The translations under genes were made by a program, and so were the position numbers. Shown here piece after piece: positions 6,968 through 16,271 of a DNA stretch of 64,000 nucleotides. The stretch's first letter is position 1, and the number at the start of each line of letters is the position of its first letter. Under the pieces are notes generated by a model that saw only the letters and a list, made by a program, of their open reading frames with translations, ran no database searches and was not told the origin of the DNA. This DNA is from Prochlorococcus sp. AG-355-J09 (GTDB taxonomy: Bacteria > Cyanobacteriota > Cyanobacteriia > PCC-6307 > Cyanobiaceae), in the NCBI GenBank assembly GCA_003278735.1, contig QCDO01000004.1, positions 1 through 64,000 of the forward strand, written 5' to 3'.

Positions 6968-7012
6968 TTTGGAGGGGTGGTCGAGTGGTTTAAGGCTCTA
7001 GTCTTGAAAACT
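6968..7012 (+). repeat. Left attachment site: 5' half of tRNA-Ser(UGA)
   Basis: A 45-bp exact copy of the sequence at 16110-16154, starting in the leader (TTT) and running through the acceptor 5' strand, the D-arm and the anticodon loop, then diverging after GAAAACT. The stretch just upstream (6940-6970) also resembles the tRNA flank at 16082-16112. A -10-like TATAGT stands 30 bp before the GGAGGGG start, which matches the spacing at the intact tRNA. This half-tRNA is therefore the original chromosomal 5' end stranded by integration. Confidence 0.9.
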
Positions 7013-7516: not shown

Positions 7517-7726
7517 ATGAATACTTTTAGTCGAGAGGAACTTGCGTCTAAAAAAGACGTCAAAGAACTTAGAGAAACAGTACAAGAGTTAATCCAAAGT
7601 TTTTCTTTTACAAGAGAAACTGTTGACCAATTAAGAATGGATTTTGATCTGGCAAGAGAAGAGAATCCATTTAATGTGAATGTCTGGTTAAAGCCATCTG
7701 AATTTGGTGGAATTTTAAAAATTTGA
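7517..7726 (+). CDS. Small coiled-coil-like island protein, unknown
   Basis: 69 aa. Heptad-like helices span roughly residues 7-48 (REELASKKDVKELRETVQELI). The stop codon overlaps the TTG start of the next gene (TTGA), so the two are translationally coupled. No family is recognised. Confidence 0.5.
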   Translation: MNTFSREELASKKDVKELRETVQELIQSFSFTRETVDQLRMDFDLAREENPFNVNVWLKPSEFGGILKI

Positions 7727-8604
7727 AAGAATTTACCAATTCAGGACAGTTTAAATATGGACAGAACGTCAAAGATTTGACAGGTAAAAAATATGGCAAG
7801 TTAACTGTTTTGAGAAGAGCCACTCAAAGTGAAATAAGTGCAAGAGGAGTAAAAAATACGAGACAAAATGTATATTGGTTGGTTCAATGTGCCTGCGGTA
7901 TTGAACCCTTTATAGTTCTTGGATTTGCATTAACAGGTAAAGATAAGAGAAGAAAAACTCAATCTGCCTTGGCTTGCAAAAAATGTGCAAGAAGAGATGC
8001 GGCAATAAGAGAAAAAAAAGAATTTATTGATTCAATTATTGGTCAACAATCTGGAAGATTAACAATACTTAGATATTGGGGAACTAAAAAAGACAGAAGG
8101 ACTAAAATTTTATGTTCATGTAGTTGTGATGATATAAAAACTCCCATTTATTTATATAGTTCTTTTAAAGCAGGCAAAGCTATTTCTTGCGGATGCGTAG
8201 TTGGAGGAGATGATTCATATAAATTCTTCAAGGAAAACGAAGATTGGGCAAATCGAAAATGCTATTACTATATAGCTGATAAAGATGATGAATTTTATAA
8301 ACTTGGGATTTCAGAAAAGAAATCAACTAGAGCAAGAGATGAAGGTTATAGAAAATATCTTTTTGAACCTGATCCACTTACAAGGTGTGAAGTATGGACA
8401 ATAGAACAATTAATCTTAAATGATTCTGTAAGAGCAAAACCAAGAGTAATTCCTGAAAGATTGGAGAAAATGGAGGGCAAATGGGAATTGAGATACAAAG
8501 ATACTTTAAATTTAAATTTTTATAGGGAAAAATATTATGAGTATCTTGAAAAACTGCAATCGCTGGGATGGGAGGAATTATATTTAACTAGATTTGATTA
8601 TTAA
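7723..8604 (+). CDS. Zinc-ribbon / GIY-YIG-like protein, candidate homing-type nuclease
   Basis: 293 aa from a TTG start overlapping the preceding gene. Two similar N-terminal modules are visible: GKKYGKLTVLRRA...WLVQCACG...ACKKC (about 22-88) and GQQSGRLTILRYW...ILCSCSCDD...ISCGC (about 107-157). This is the 'GxLTVLR + CxCG' pattern of zinc-ribbon modules in phage and homing-endonuclease-associated proteins. The C-terminal part opens with YYYIADKDDEFYKLGIS, resembling the GIY-YIG / T5orf172 nuclease core. Role inferred as a selfish or element-associated DNA nuclease. No catalytic assay-level residues can be assigned with certainty. It converges on the leftward secreted-protein array. Confidence 0.55.
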   Translation: MKEFTNSGQFKYGQNVKDLTGKKYGKLTVLRRATQSEISARGVKNTRQNVYWLVQCACGIEPFIVLGFALTGKDKRRKTQSALACKKCARRDAAIREKKEFIDSIIGQQSGRLTILRYWGTKKDRRTKILCSCSCDDIKTPIYLYSSFKAGKAISCGCVVGGDDSYKFFKENEDWANRKCYYYIADKDDEFYKLGISEKKSTRARDEGYRKYLFEPDPLTRCEVWTIEQLILNDSVRAKPRVIPERLEKMEGKWELRYKDTLNLNFYREKYYEYLEKLQSLGWEELYLTRFDY

Positions 8605-8630: not shown

Positions 8631-9194
8631 TTAAATTGAGGTTCCTCTTCTTTTATTTGGTGAAAGTTCATTTTCTGGGAAAATTTCCTTTAAATTTTCT
8701 GGAAAGAAAAACTCCAATTGTCTCCTTAAATTACCTTCATAAAATTTGTTTGGAACTTTAAAAGTATCTCTTACTAATTGAACATTTATTTTTTCCTTTT
8801 TACCTGCCTCATTTACTCTTAATAAGACTAACTTAATTGGCTTATCTTTTGGTCCTTTTATGAGAGAAACTGCTTCTGTTATACCCATTCCTCTCGTAGA
8901 TTTCCCATCTATTTTGATAATTACATCATTTGGTTGAATGTCAGCGGAGGCAGCAGGAGAATCATTTATTACAGATTGAATAGTTAATTCAGCAGTATCA
9001 CTATTAAGAAAGAGCCTTATTCCAATCCCTATTATCTCCTTATCTTTTTTGTGAGATAGATTTTTATTGGTTGTCACACAACCTGCATAATCTCGTGCTT
9101 CTAAACATTTTTTATGTAATTCATCAGATATTCCAGCATTAACAGCAGTAGGTAAAGAGAGGGCTGCTAGTAGTGGGAGTAGTAAGCGTTTCAT
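8631..9194 (-). CDS. Exported PDZ-domain protein
   Basis: 187 aa. Signal peptide MKRLLLPLLAALSLPTAVNA (residues 1-20, AxA-type cleavage) is encoded by a full R1 repeat. A short segment with a Cys pair (KKCLEARDYAGC) follows; I regard this segment as a recurring motif of small exported Prochlorococcus proteins. A PDZ domain then spans about residues 55-145 (LTIQSVINDSPAASADIQ...NDVIIKIDGKS...PIKLVLLR), similar to the PDZ of C-terminal processing proteases, but no protease domain follows. It is likely periplasmic or lumenal, binding C-terminal peptides. The start codon directly follows the stop of the 70-aa gene (TAAATG). Confidence 0.75.
   Translation of the reverse strand: MKRLLLPLLAALSLPTAVNAGISDELHKKCLEARDYAGCVTTNKNLSHKKDKEIIGIGIRLFLNSDTAELTIQSVINDSPAASADIQPNDVIIKIDGKSTRGMGITEAVSLIKGPKDKPIKLVLLRVNEAGKKEKINVQLVRDTFKVPNKFYEGNLRRQLEFFFPENLKEIFPENELSPNKRRGTSI
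9136..9194 (-). repeat. R1 full copy (signal-peptide cassette)
   Basis: 59 bp encoding MKRLLLPLLAALSLPTAVNA; near-identical at DNA level to 9349-9407 and 13908-13966. Confidence 0.9.
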
Positions 9195-9407
9195 TTATTT
9201 ACCAATTATGCAACTATAATCTCTGCCCATTTTATTAATTGCTCTCCACTTTTCCCCTTCGCTCTCGCAAGCTTTTATATTTGGCATTTCAATTTTTTCT
9301 AACGCCCCAACTTTTCCTTTTTTGACTATTATCAACCAATAAGATTCTGCATTAACAGCAGTAGGTAAAGCGAGGGCTGCTAATAGTGGAAGTAGTAAGC
9401 GGTTCAT
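9195..9407 (-). CDS. Small exported protein, paralogue of the 77-aa gene at 13.7 kb
   Basis: 70 aa: signal peptide MNRLLLPLLAALALPTAVNA plus a mature domain of about 50 aa (ESYWLIIVKKGKVGALEKIEM...CESEGEKW...YSCIIGK). Two cysteines, conserved in spacing with the 77-aa protein, suggest one disulfide outside the cytoplasm. Proteins of this shape are multicopy in Prochlorococcus; function unknown. Its TAA stop is fused to the ATG of the PDZ gene. Confidence 0.7.
   Translation of the reverse strand: MNRLLLPLLAALALPTAVNAESYWLIIVKKGKVGALEKIEMPNIKACESEGEKWRAINKMGRDYSCIIGK
9349..9407 (-). repeat. R1 full copy (signal-peptide cassette)
   Basis: 59 bp, few differences from 9136-9194 (AACCGC for AAACGC at the start). 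Encodes the signal peptide of the 70-aa gene. Confidence 0.9.
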
Positions 9408-9784: not shown

Positions 9785-10071
9785 TTAACAACGAATATAT
9801 TGTCCCGATACACTTCCATATGAAGTCCCAGATATTTCTCCATAAACTTCTCCATATTCAACGTAAGCATTTTCTAATTTTCCTGATACAGATCCATAAA
9901 CAGAACCACCTCTAATATCACAACTTTCTATTATTTCCTCAACATCTTCTTCATCAAGAGAACCATATAAGCATATGCCTTTTCAGATAATGAAAATCCT
10001 AATTCTCTGCAAATATCATTAAACATATACCCACAGGAAAAGATTGATAAAATAATTAGAAATTTCTTCAT
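9785..10071 (-). pseudogene. Frameshifted small exported protein
   Basis: ATG at 10071 gives MKKFLIILSIFSCGYMFNDICRELGFSLSEKAYAY and then stops after 46 codons. One frame over, a clear protein continues (GSLDEEDVEEIIESC...) with Y/G/S repeats (GGSVYGSVSGKLENAYVEYG) to a stop at 9785. A single-base indel near the GCTTATATGG stretch joins the two. The C-terminal repeat of GxVxG units could form a small beta structure. Either the gene is dead in this genome or the base is a sequencing error. Confidence 0.65.
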
Positions 10072-11241: not shown

Positions 11242-13017
11242 TTAGAAATGCCATCTTAAGCTACCACCGTAAGAATGCTGGCGCCCTTCATTGGTCACTC
11301 CAATTGTGGCATTAAGACTAAACATTAAATCTTTGGTACAAACAATATCTGCTCCTAATTTAGCAACTGCATTTACTACTCCAAAGTTTTTAGCATTCAC
11401 ATGAGTTGTGGTAGTGGTGCTGTTAGTTAATTTACCTTTAACGCCTTTTGTATTTTCTCCATCTGCTGCAGGGTCATAGGCTAGATCAATACCAAAAGAA
11501 GGAATTAAAATCCATTTACCTTTTTCCATTTGTATTTGCCTGTCAACAGTTATTCCTGTTTTTAGAAGTAATGATTCTGACTGGTTCTTATCTATAGAAA
11601 TGAGATCACCAGTACCTGTCTCAGATAATTCATCTTGATTATGTATTGCATAGGCAATTCCAGCAGTGGGTCTCAGACGGATTGGATTGTTTGAATTGTC
11701 TAGATATTTCTTGTAATTCCAGATGCCATTTATTTCTCCAGAAAAAGCATCTGCATCGTAATAGGAAGTTGCAACCGTAGAAGAATATGTTCCATAATTT
11801 CTATATCCGTAGTAGTCGAAATCAGAGCCACCAAAAGTAGCTTTTAAAGTAAATTTATCACTGGCTTTTTTAACACCGTATAAATAATAATGACTGTTAT
11901 ATGAATTAAAATTAGCCCTTGTATCAGAGAAATTAAAGTTATCTAGATTAGCGGAACCATAACCGTAAGATATACCAGCTTTCCATTTATCATTGATAGT
12001 TTTTTCAATATTTAGGGCGGTATTAAAAGCAGCAGTGTCATAACCACCTTTTGTAGAACTGCTGTTTACATAAGAGATGGTATTTTTTGCATTTGTATAG
12101 ACGCAGTAATCAGTATCACCAACTTGCCAACCGATGTTATTACATTCTCCAGCTTTTTCTAGAACTAAATCTCTATGATTTTTTATAGAAGCTAAGCCAA
12201 TATTCTGCATTGCTGCGTATGATTGTACCCACTCTGTGTGGAGCTGACTAATAGAAACTGAACTAGCAGTAACTGATTCTGAGGTGCTAGAACCATCTGT
12301 ATAAGCAACAGTAACTCTTATGGATTTTCCTTCTTCTGAGGGTGTAATCGTATAGGTTGAACTTGTAGCACCACTGATATCTGACCATGTGGAACCATCT
12401 GATGAAGATTGCCAAGTGTAAGAAGTAACTGTTCCATTACCATCAGGGTCATCTGTAGATATAACAGCAGTTAAGGAAGAACCTGCATATGTATCTCCAC
12501 TTATGGAGTAAGAAGCGTCTCCGGTATCGGTTACTGTAGGCGAACTTGACACTACAAAAGCAACATAACGATTATTCCAAATATTTATGGAGCTTGCATC
12601 ATTAGCCATAGTATTGTCGTAACCATTACTACTATGAGTAGAAGCATTACCATGATTTCTGACCCATCCCATAGTATTAAAACTTCCGTCCCCATTAGTA
12701 TCTGTCAAATGATATACAAAATGGGGGCCATATATTCCTGGTCCAGGACTTATGAAACCACTAATCGCACCTCCCGCTGCCATTGCGAATTCATAAGCTG
12801 ATGTGAATCCATTACTAACTCCTGAATACCAAGGATTACTCTGTACATCAGAAACGAAAGAATTGTAATCAGAATACTTTCGGCTTTTTATAACATAAGT
12901 GGTTTCGTTTATATCTACAGTCGCAGAACCAGTACTTAAGCTTGCATCTAAAGGTAAAAAATTAAAAAGAATAGTTACTGGAAGTAAAACTTTAGTAATT
13001 TTCATACTTATTTTCAT
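11242..13017 (-). CDS. Autotransporter-like outer-membrane/surface protein
   Basis: 591 aa. Signal peptide is near 1-26 (VLLPVTILFNFLPLDAS). The passenger has a Gly/Ser/Asn-rich stretch (30-155) and one Ig-like domain at about 160-252 (SISGDTYAGSSLTAVI...TYTITPSEEGKSIRVTV). The C-terminal 260 residues show alternating aromatic/polar beta strands and end in RWHF, with a terminal aromatic as in outer-membrane barrels. Autotransporter beta-domain (type V) is the best family call. It probably displays a surface domain. It is the largest cargo gene of the island and Ser/Thr-rich compared with its neighbours. An alternative start is the second Met at residue 5. Confidence 0.75.
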   Translation of the reverse strand: MKISMKITKVLLPVTILFNFLPLDASLSTGSATVDINETTYVIKSRKYSDYNSFVSDVQSNPWYSGVSNGFTSAYEFAMAAGGAISGFISPGPGIYGPHFVYHLTDTNGDGSFNTMGWVRNHGNASTHSSNGYDNTMANDASSINIWNNRYVAFVVSSSPTVTDTGDASYSISGDTYAGSSLTAVISTDDPDGNGTVTSYTWQSSSDGSTWSDISGATSSTYTITPSEEGKSIRVTVAYTDGSSTSESVTASSVSISQLHTEWVQSYAAMQNIGLASIKNHRDLVLEKAGECNNIGWQVGDTDYCVYTNAKNTISYVNSSSTKGGYDTAAFNTALNIEKTINDKWKAGISYGYGSANLDNFNFSDTRANFNSYNSHYYLYGVKKASDKFTLKATFGGSDFDYYGYRNYGTYSSTVATSYYDADAFSGEINGIWNYKKYLDNSNNPIRLRPTAGIAYAIHNQDELSETGTGDLISIDKNQSESLLLKTGITVDRQIQMEKGKWILIPSFGIDLAYDPAADGENTKGVKGKLTNSTTTTTHVNAKNFGVVNAVAKLGADIVCTKDLMFSLNATIGVTNEGRQHSYGGSLRWHF

Positions 13018-13021
13018 ATGA

Positions 13022-13186
13022 TTAAAAATAGCTAATTGATTTCAATAAATTGATTTTTGTGCGGTTTTCGGAATCCAGAAAGTCGACTGCCTGCATGCAC
13101 ATTTCAGCTACTATAGGATCAACATCTGCTTTAACAGCAGTAGGAAAATCGATAGCTGCTAGCAATGGAATTAGTAAGCTTCTCAT
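13022..13186 (-). CDS. Short exported peptide with diverged R1 signal sequence
   Basis: 54 aa, below the track cutoff. MRSLLIPLLAAIDFPTAVKA is a drifted version of the R1 signal peptide, followed by DVDPIVAEMCMQAVDFLD. That segment resembles KKCLEARDYAGC in the PDZ protein, so this may be a truncated relative. It sits 4 bp upstream of the autotransporter start. Could be a decaying gene. Confidence 0.45.
   Translation of the reverse strand: MRSLLIPLLAAIDFPTAVKADVDPIVAEMCMQAVDFLDSENRTKINLLKSISYF
13128..13186 (-). repeat. R1 full copy, diverged
   Basis: 59 bp, same length as the other complete copies but with more substitutions (ATGAGAAGCTTACTAATT). Confidence 0.8.
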
Positions 13187-13732: not shown

Positions 13733-13966
13733 TTATTTAGCTCTTACACAGTTAAAAGTAATCTGATACTTAGCAACGTATTTAGGAGTCCAATTTTTAT
13801 TATTAACAAAATCTTGACCAGCTTCTTCGCATATTTCTAAGGTTTTCATTGGAACAACAAAAGTATGTCTATCTGCTGATCCCAAAAGATAATAATTAGC
13901 AACTTCTGCATTAACAGAAGTAGGTAAAGATAGTGCAGCTAGTAGTGGGAGTAGTAAGCGTTTCAT
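13733..13966 (-). CDS. Small exported protein, paralogue of the 70-aa gene at 9.2 kb
   Basis: 77 aa. R1-encoded signal peptide MKRLLLPLLAALSLPTSVNA plus a mature domain (VANYYLLGSADRHTFVVPMK...CEEAGQDF...FNCVRAK). The cysteine positions and the Y-x-L...M..(L/I)..CE..G pattern match the 70-aa protein. Probably a small disulfide-bonded periplasmic domain. The start follows TAAATAA of the 100-aa gene. Confidence 0.7.
   Translation of the reverse strand: MKRLLLPLLAALSLPTSVNAEVANYYLLGSADRHTFVVPMKTLEICEEAGQDFVNNKNWTPKYVAKYQITFNCVRAK
13908..13966 (-). repeat. R1 full copy (signal-peptide cassette)
   Basis: 59 bp, closest to the copies at 9136 and 9349. Confidence 0.9.
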
Positions 13967-13970
13967 TTAT

Positions 13971-14273
13971 TTAGTCTCCACAATCTCCACCATCTCCACC
14001 TCCACAACCTCCACCATCTCCACTACTTCCATTACCACCATCACCACTTTCCCCGAATTTACTTCTTGATGTATTTATTACTTCTTTAAATTTAAAATCG
14101 CCGCTAATTATATTAAGACTAAACTGAGCTATAGCTATGAAAAATATGAGTAGACCATTTAATAGACCCTTAAATGCAAGAACAAATAAAATAGCCCAAA
14201 GACTATAATTTATATATTTTTTGTATTTCCTAAGAAATTCCAAATTAAAAATTTCAAGTAGTAAGCGTTTCAT
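13971..14273 (-). CDS. Membrane protein with Gly/Asp/Cys-rich tail
   Basis: 100 aa. It begins with only the first six residues of R1 (MKRLLL) and then an unrelated sequence. One or two hydrophobic helices (SLWAILFVLAFKGLLNGLLI and FFIAIAQFSLNIIS) are followed by a low-complexity tail GDGGGCGGGDGGDCGD. The fusion of the R1 start to a foreign body is visible at base level. It overlaps the stop of the upstream gene by ATGA. Function unknown. Confidence 0.55.
   Translation of the reverse strand: MKRLLLEIFNLEFLRKYKKYINYSLWAILFVLAFKGLLNGLLIFFIAIAQFSLNIISGDFKFKEVINTSRSKFGESGDGGNGSSGDGGGCGGGDGGDCGD
14257..14273 (-). repeat. R1 short copy used as gene start
   Basis: ATGAAACGCTTACTACT provides the start codon and first residues of the 100-aa membrane protein. 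Confidence 0.8.
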
Positions 14274-14680: not shown

Positions 14681-14717
14681 GGAACTAATTGCCCCTTATT
14701 GTAGATCGACTGTCAAT
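14681..14717 (-). repeat. R2 linker copy at the recombinase stop
   Basis: ATTGACAGTCGATCTACAAT...AAGGGGCAATTAGTTCCTT plus T-run. Its TGA is the recombinase stop codon, and the next start codon follows 6 bp after the hairpin; the stem is kept by G-U pairs. Confidence 0.85.
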
Positions 14718-15684
14718 TATTAAGTTTCCTTGATGCTTTTATAGCATCAATTTGTTCGTAAGTAGAGTTATAAATCTCATAGTGAGTATTAATTGAGTGA
14801 CCAAGACTTTTACTCGCAACTCTCGCATCTAACCCTGCGTGAATACTTCTAACTCCCCAATTATGTCTAATATCCGTAAGTTGTAAGAATCCAATACCCA
14901 ACTCTTTAGCCCTGGGCGTTAGATACCTTAACCATTGATTGCCAAGATATTTAGTTCTCGTTGGGTCATAGTCGTTTAGATCGAAAGTATATTCTCGTTG
15001 AATGTTATCCAGTTCCCATTTGATAGCCAGTTCCTTAGTAAGTGCTATTGGATATTTCATATACATAGACTTCTTACCTTTAGGAATACAGACACTTGTG
15101 GCAGTACCACTATCTAAGTCGGGTATGAGTGAGAAAGTTTCACCGCTACGAGTGCCGTAACAGAAAGCACTAGCTGTAAGCCAGCCCCATTTCTCGTTAT
15201 CTCTAACCATTTCGACCAACTCTATTAACTTTGCTGGGTCAATGTTTACTCTTTGCTTGGCTTTGTATCTACCGACAAACTCATCAATAAGTTCTACATT
15301 ATTTAGTCCGTTAGCTTCCGCAAGTCGTTTGTAGTATTGGCAAAGTTTTCTTCTTTTATCAGACTCAGGTTCACTTTGTTTTATCTCATCAATTAAGACT
15401 CCCATATTTAGAGTTGCATTTTGTGGGAGTTTATTTAAGTGGCCTAGTATTCCTTTCCAGGTCTGTTGCTTTGGTAATTTATTTCTATCCTTATCTTTCC
15501 AGTAATCAAGTTCAAATATTTTTATAGCTTCATTAACAGTTATTCCTTTCGATACTCCTTTTAACTCAACCTTTGGCGTGTCCCACATTAGTTGGTCTGG
15601 TATGAATCCGTTTTTATTTACATATTCAACTAGGGTTAATATTCTGGCTTCTGCTGAGACTAGGTTGTTTTTATCAGCACTCAA
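14713..15684 (-). CDS. Tyrosine recombinase / integrase of the tRNA-Ser element
   Basis: The catalytic domain is clear: Arg I in GTRSGETFSL, Arg II in TDIRHNWGVR (first His replaced by Thr), LGHS and the nucleophile Tyr in HYEIYNS near the C-terminus. The track start is an internal TTG. The same frame stays open for another 80 codons to 15924, with protein-like content (RNIKAKLVVGRNHLFIRGTF, an arm-type N-terminal domain), so the native protein is about 400 aa. No ATG/GTG/TTG exists in that extension. An ATG at 15926 lies one base out of frame and would give MAGIFGIGNKKG if a base were restored. It carries out site-specific integration at tRNA-Ser. Its stop is shared with the R2 linker. Confidence 0.85.
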   Translation of the reverse strand: MSADKNNLVSAEARILTLVEYVNKNGFIPDQLMWDTPKVELKGVSKGITVNEAIKIFELDYWKDKDRNKLPKQQTWKGILGHLNKLPQNATLNMGVLIDEIKQSEPESDKRRKLCQYYKRLAEANGLNNVELIDEFVGRYKAKQRVNIDPAKLIELVEMVRDNEKWGWLTASAFCYGTRSGETFSLIPDLDSGTATSVCIPKGKKSMYMKYPIALTKELAIKWELDNIQREYTFDLNDYDPTRTKYLGNQWLRYLTPRAKELGIGFLQLTDIRHNWGVRSIHAGLDARVASKSLGHSINTHYEIYNSTYEQIDAIKASRKLNN

Positions 15685-16109: not shown

Positions 16110-16154
16110 TTTGGAGGGGTGGTCGAGTGGTTTAAGGCTCTAGTCTTGAAAACT
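16110..16154 (+). repeat. Right attachment site within tRNA-Ser
   Basis: 45 bp identical to 6968-7012, ending in the anticodon loop/stem. The recombinase core site is expected inside this repeat. Confidence 0.9.
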
Positions 16155-16199
16155 AGCGTGTCTGCAAGGGCACCGTGGGTTCGAATCCCACCCCCTCCG
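16113..16199 (+). tRNA. tRNA-Ser(UGA)
   Basis: 87 nt ending in discriminator G. Acceptor GGAGGGG/CCCCTCC, D-arm with GAGTGGTTTAAGGC, anticodon stem CTAGT/ACTAG with loop CTTGAAA (anticodon TGA), a long class II variable arm and T-arm GTGGGTTCGAATCCCAC. CCA is not encoded. The 5' 42 nt are the right attachment repeat of the island. Confidence 0.97.
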
Positions 16200-16271
16200 T
16201 TCAAATAAAAAAACCGAATAATAAAAACGCCTTTTTGAAACGTTCTTGTTAAGATAAATTTTATTTAGATT

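Follow-up and report, generated by a model that had tools for sequence, protein, structure and literature searches.

The window, the whole stretch of DNA analysed here, is 64,000 nt of Prochlorococcus sp. AG-355-J09 (contig QCDO01000004.1 of assembly GCA_003278735.1, positions 1–64,000). It contains a gene for a 591-residue autotransporter-like protein, whose parts are listed in Table 1. The N-terminus of the protein is hydrophobic and, on inspection, could plausibly be cut by signal peptidase near residue 25. The N-terminal passenger domain has no match in a Pfam scan. BLASTP identifies as its kin the passengers of genomes G157, G216 and G010 and, more weakly and by way of these, those of G066, G024 and G155. 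The Ig-like domain that follows is modelled by AF2 with a pLDDT of 76–89. Its matches to the Ig domain of the plant protein SCAB1 are weak (Pfam E 0.002, below the cut-off; PDB 4dix E 2.6e-4; Foldseek E 2.5e-4). Elsewhere in the genus, the domain occurs in many tandem copies within open frames of 1,000–5,000 aa (for example G038:C7, G109:C1 and G199:C24).

The rest of the protein is a beta-domain that matches PF03797 at residues 317–570, covering model positions 12–254 of 255. Earlier claims of a 591-aa open reading frame with one Ig-like domain and a C-terminal Phe are borne out by the ORF call, the AF2 model and the translation, and the nearly full-length PF03797 match (E 1.3e-21) supports the autotransporter class that had been proposed.

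Table 1. Features of the autotransporter-like gene and of the island around it (positions in the window)
Feature	Position	Strand	Basis
Autotransporter-like gene, 591 aa	11242..13017	-	ORF, ATG start; PF03797 E 1.3e-21
Probable signal peptide, residues 1-25	12943..13017	-	Translation inspected
N-terminal passenger domain, residues ~28-155	12553..12936	-	BLASTP between passengers
Ig-like domain, residues ~167-257	12247..12519	-	AF2 model; SCAB1-Ig resemblance
Constant beta-domain, residues 259-591, first residues LHTEWVQ	11245..12243	-	PF03797; junction common to all copies
Left attachment repeat, 45 nt, piece of tRNA-Ser 5' half	6968..7012	+	Exact repeat
Right attachment repeat, 45 nt, 5' half of intact tRNA-Ser	16110..16154	+	Exact repeat
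tRNA-Ser(TGA), integration target	16112..16200	+	ARAGORN; Rfam RF00005
Tyrosine-recombinase-like ORF, adjoins tRNA	14713..15684	-	PF00589 E 0.0043, below cut-off; motifs inspected
Signal-peptide module	9136-9194, 9349-9407, 13127-13184, 13908-13966; remnants ~13704, ~10578		

An element of 9.14 kb, inserted in tRNA-Ser, carries the gene. Next to the tRNA lies a recombinase-like ORF, in whose translation we noted by inspection the motifs ..TRSGE.., ..DIRH.. and LGH..Y. As a query for empty sites, we joined the two flanks of the element (left flank onto position 16155). Seven genomes (G047, G085, G034, G109, G003, G014 and G099) have the site uninterrupted over 299 nt at 87–94% identity, and in the window's own genome the same query is split around 9.1 kb. 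Only tRNA scored above threshold in the Rfam scan. The preliminary description had placed the gene in a mobile island as cargo, and the exact 45-nt repeats and the seven uninterrupted sites support this. By the definition in PMC10872708, the element appears to belong with the tycheposons.

Several other sequences recur in the island. Unrelated small exported ORFs have in common a DNA module (MKRLLLPLLAALALPTAVNA-like) that codes for a signal peptide. Among 13 distinct ORFs its median DNA identity is 82% over 60 nt, compared with about 30% on either side, and part of it is present with at most 3 mismatches in 63 of 121 genomes. A 32-nt motif, TTGACAGTCGATCTAAAATAAGGGGCAATTAG, stands ahead of island genes at window positions 10070, 10513, 10945, 13297 and 14672, and occurs in 225 of 265 Prochlorococcus genomes (0 for the reversed control); we take it to be, probably, the PRE1 repeat of Prochlorococcus islands. 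Near the recombinase-like ORF is a small ORF (13971–14273) with two cysteines and a Gly/Asp-rich tail at its end. A 293-aa ORF on the element's other strand (7723–8604) has a weak Pfam match to the CapR domain, below the cut-off.

We modelled two members of the family with AF2, using alignments of 19–21 sequences. In the window protein (21 sequences) the beta-domain had a pLDDT below 50 over most of its length, and the 12-strand barrel that had been expected was not visible. The beta-domain of a ubiquitin-bearing relative from strain MIT 9314 was also of low confidence, with five strands of 14–18 residues after one helix. Foldseek with the AF2 model of the window protein matched mainly Ig/Fn3-like domains, and a profile search of PDB with the beta-domain gave no autotransporter and nothing credible. 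We count these low-confidence beta-domains and the PDB result against the autotransporter explanation. A barrel in the window protein is suggested by the Pfam match.

The beta-domain was found in 21 of 266 Prochlorococcus genomes, including one (G081) with a distant and much larger protein; of the 87 most complete genomes, 11 carry it. Scanning named genomes gave 19 loci, all in Prochlorococcus and including the cultured strain MIT 9314. Weaker relatives are present in other genera of the same family. None of the viral contigs searched contained a relative of the gene; the phage records searched yielded one partial match, which at 27% identity is weak and was set aside. PF03797 is present in all 14 family members scanned. 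Beta-domains of relatives align to the window copy at 51–63% identity, and the C-terminal residue is F in the window and in most copies, Y in G024 and L in MIT 9314. Such a protein had been called unusual for a streamlined cyanobacterium. It is accessory, being present in about 20 of 266 genomes, but it is recurrent in the genus.

Between the window and 23 relatives, dN/dS of the beta-domain is 0.11–0.28. The median of 0.17 indicates purifying selection. The window's genome has a second copy (G000 contig C23, 13951–15435, L038) with a beta-domain 83% identical, a different N-terminus and at least one internal stop. This broken copy, the presence of the gene in a minority of genomes and the copy in G196, which looks split into two ORFs, are what might be seen if the family were transient genomic debris, island genes gained and lost unused. 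We find this highly improbable: in the other copies analysed the reading frame is long and open, and the median dN/dS points the other way.

For a comparison of domains, we used 24 copies from 20 genomes (276 pairs). Median pairwise identity is 76% in the beta-domain versus 22% in the passenger, which is about background. BLASTP between passengers, with the shared Ig domain disregarded, separates them into nine families on one anchor, an approximate count that depends on the E-value limit. These are the window type (window, G157, G216, G010, G066, G024 and G155); ubiquitin (six copies); beta-propeller repeats matching PF06739 (G021 copy 3 and G196); G028/G103; G106/G021 copy 2; G138/G259; and three singletons (G015, G021 copy 1 and G236). 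Presence or absence of the gene and passenger variation across strains had been proposed as a check, and with some 20 of 266 genomes and nine passenger families the outcome is strongly positive.

Single pairs of copies show the exchange. Copies 2 and 3 of G021 have 975 nt of identical beta-domain DNA, a match that extends from the domain boundary to just beyond the stop codon, and unrelated passengers. The beta-domains of G157 and G028 are 99.7% identical in DNA, with 144 of 144 fourfold sites identical; their passengers are unrelated except for the Ig domain, and the N-domains differ. The converse is seen in the ubiquitin copies of G066 and G127, where fourfold sites are identical at 34/35 in the passenger versus 67/112 in the beta-domain. 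These junctions are unlikely to be assembly chimeras, because several lie deep within long contigs and one is in a cultured strain.

The ubiquitin passengers were found with PF00240, which matches in 6 of 266 genomes (E-values 3.4e-24 to 1.9e-31). Every match is fused to the beta-domain of this family, and one carrier is the cultured MIT 9314. Over residues 1–71, between 54 and 68 of 71 positions are identical to human ubiquitin (95.8% in the best case). The LRLRGG conjugation tail is absent in all six; a short linker leads into the beta-domain instead. Ile44 is replaced by Thr in four of the six and Arg42 is altered in five, and these changes would speak against the domain being selected to bind the standard ubiquitin receptors. 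The GC content of the ubiquitin passengers is host-like. Signal peptides vary, with three kinds among the six copies; the copy in G162 uses the signal-peptide module described above.

A ubiquitin match in a genome of another genus of the same family (G311, L148) was rejected as eukaryotic contamination, since ubiquitin is followed by deubiquitinase-like sequence in the same ORF. This contaminant shares E16D and A28Q with the ubiquitin copies of G066 and G127. We also rejected a match of the ubiquitin protein to a Rad23 model, far below the cut-off.

The secreted, eukaryote-like ubiquitin BfUbb inhibits other strains of Bacteroides fragilis (PMC5705921). By analogy, the passenger might be an inhibitory domain presented to rival cells, and here too the ubiquitin is apparently exported and the passengers are strain-variable. 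However, BfUbb is a free protein of 76 residues, whereas the Prochlorococcus ubiquitin is fused to an anchor and has no tail, and most passengers are something other than ubiquitin. We regard antagonism of this type as very unlikely.

Many loci of the family have a 48-nt repeat that corresponds to the 3' part of tRNA-Pro(TGG). Of the 24 copies, 15, from 13 genomes, lie beside or between these repeats, and for 13 of the 15 the repeat is 132–155 bp downstream of the stop codon. At these loci, 36 units have a repeat on both sides and measure 0.9–5.5 kb. Units that are homologous between G106, G216 and G015 match to within 1–13 nt of the repeats, and their neighbours differ. The six ubiquitin copies, the copies in G155 and G024 and the window gene lie outside tRNA-Pro units. 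Genus-wide, the repeat is present in 104 of 121 genomes, including 42 of the 42 most complete, with a maximum of 13 per genome. Arrays of the tRNA-Pro 3' fragment (e.g. G039:C1 980106–1014762 and G113:C15) are mostly in one orientation, with a spacing of at most a few kb.

Homologous recombination between the repeats, as opposed to site-specific insertion of the units, would be possible with direct repeats of 45–48 nt spaced 0.7–4 kb apart, and most units have no recombinase. But each repeat derives from a tRNA gene (its 3' part), and tRNA genes are where tyrosine recombinases usually insert; many arrays end with an intact tRNA-Pro; and in G216 a recombinase-like gene comes directly after a repeat. 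On balance we doubt that homologous recombination moves the units.

As cargo of integrated elements, the displayed protein might keep phages or other elements out of the carrier cell, which would favour fast exchange of its exposed part and fit the diverse passengers on a constant anchor. The ubiquitin loci and two others are outside tRNA-Pro units, which speaks against such an exclusion factor, and we consider it unlikely.

We think it probable that the window gene encodes a type Va-like autotransporter, with a constant anchor onto which passengers are recombined, and that it moves as island cargo. The broken second copy on contig C23 counts against this explanation. The protein would be exported in a Sec-dependent manner as a monomeric type Va-like autotransporter. 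Its C-terminal beta-domain, of about 330 residues, would insert in the outer membrane and leave the N-domain and the Ig-like domain exposed outside the cell. Unrelated passengers, including a tail-less eukaryote-like ubiquitin, are recombined onto this anchor. The window copy would be transferred between genomes on the 9.14-kb tRNA-Ser element, which has a recombinase-like ORF of its own; copies elsewhere would travel in short units delimited by 3' fragments of tRNA-Pro, probably mobilised in trans by a recombinase. This would probably swap one exposed domain, used in binding or recognition, for another, and a variable displayed domain of this type is the most likely function of the protein; such a swap might, as had been suggested, alter recognition by phages or grazers. 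What the data show is the domain architecture, the swapping of passengers, the element with its empty sites, the limits of the units and the presence of ubiquitin passengers; exposure at the surface, the barrel, a trans-acting recombinase and the role in binding or recognition are inferences.

More tentatively, the units with a tRNA-Pro fragment boundary and a recombinase in trans may amount to an integron-like system that shuffles display genes, with ubiquitin exposed for contact with eukaryotes or rival cells. Few photosynthetic organisms are as abundant as Prochlorococcus. If our reading is correct, exchangeable exposed domains on a mobile anchor gene offer a direct route to surface diversity, and ubiquitin on the surface of a free-living cyanobacterium would be of interest beyond the genus, as would cassette arrays based on a tRNA fragment.

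The protein class itself is not new; what is new is that passengers are exchanged, that one of them is ubiquitin and that units are delimited by tRNA fragments. In the open literature searched, we found no report of a Prochlorococcus autotransporter of this kind or of a ubiquitin fusion. Type Va autotransporters such as Ag43 and EstA are similarly single chains with an N-terminal export signal, a passenger and a C-terminal PF03797, and PMC10058404 discusses domain shuffling for Ag43. The Prochlorococcus family differs in its Ig-like, ubiquitin and beta-propeller passengers, in two invariant cysteines (C292 and C305) near the start of the beta-domain and in the link between exchange and tRNA-bounded elements.

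Tycheposons (PMC10872708) likewise have tRNA integration, a tyrosine recombinase (recombinase-like in the window ORF), cargo genes and empty sites in relatives. Unlike them, the tRNA-Pro units are mostly without a recombinase. We recognised no other tycheposon hallmark genes in the window element. Integron cassettes, too, are short units, often of one gene, arrayed with a recurring sequence at their boundaries and with neighbours that differ by genome. Their boundary is attC, whereas that of the Prochlorococcus units is a tRNA-Pro 3' fragment, and, short of a profile search, we recognised no integron integrase. BfUbb is, like the Prochlorococcus passengers, an exported bacterial ubiquitin of eukaryotic type (PMC3352274, PMC5705921). 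It is a free protein, in contrast to the anchor-fused form without the Gly-Gly tail described here, and its reported identity to human ubiquitin is 63%, compared with up to 95.8% over residues 1–71 in Prochlorococcus.
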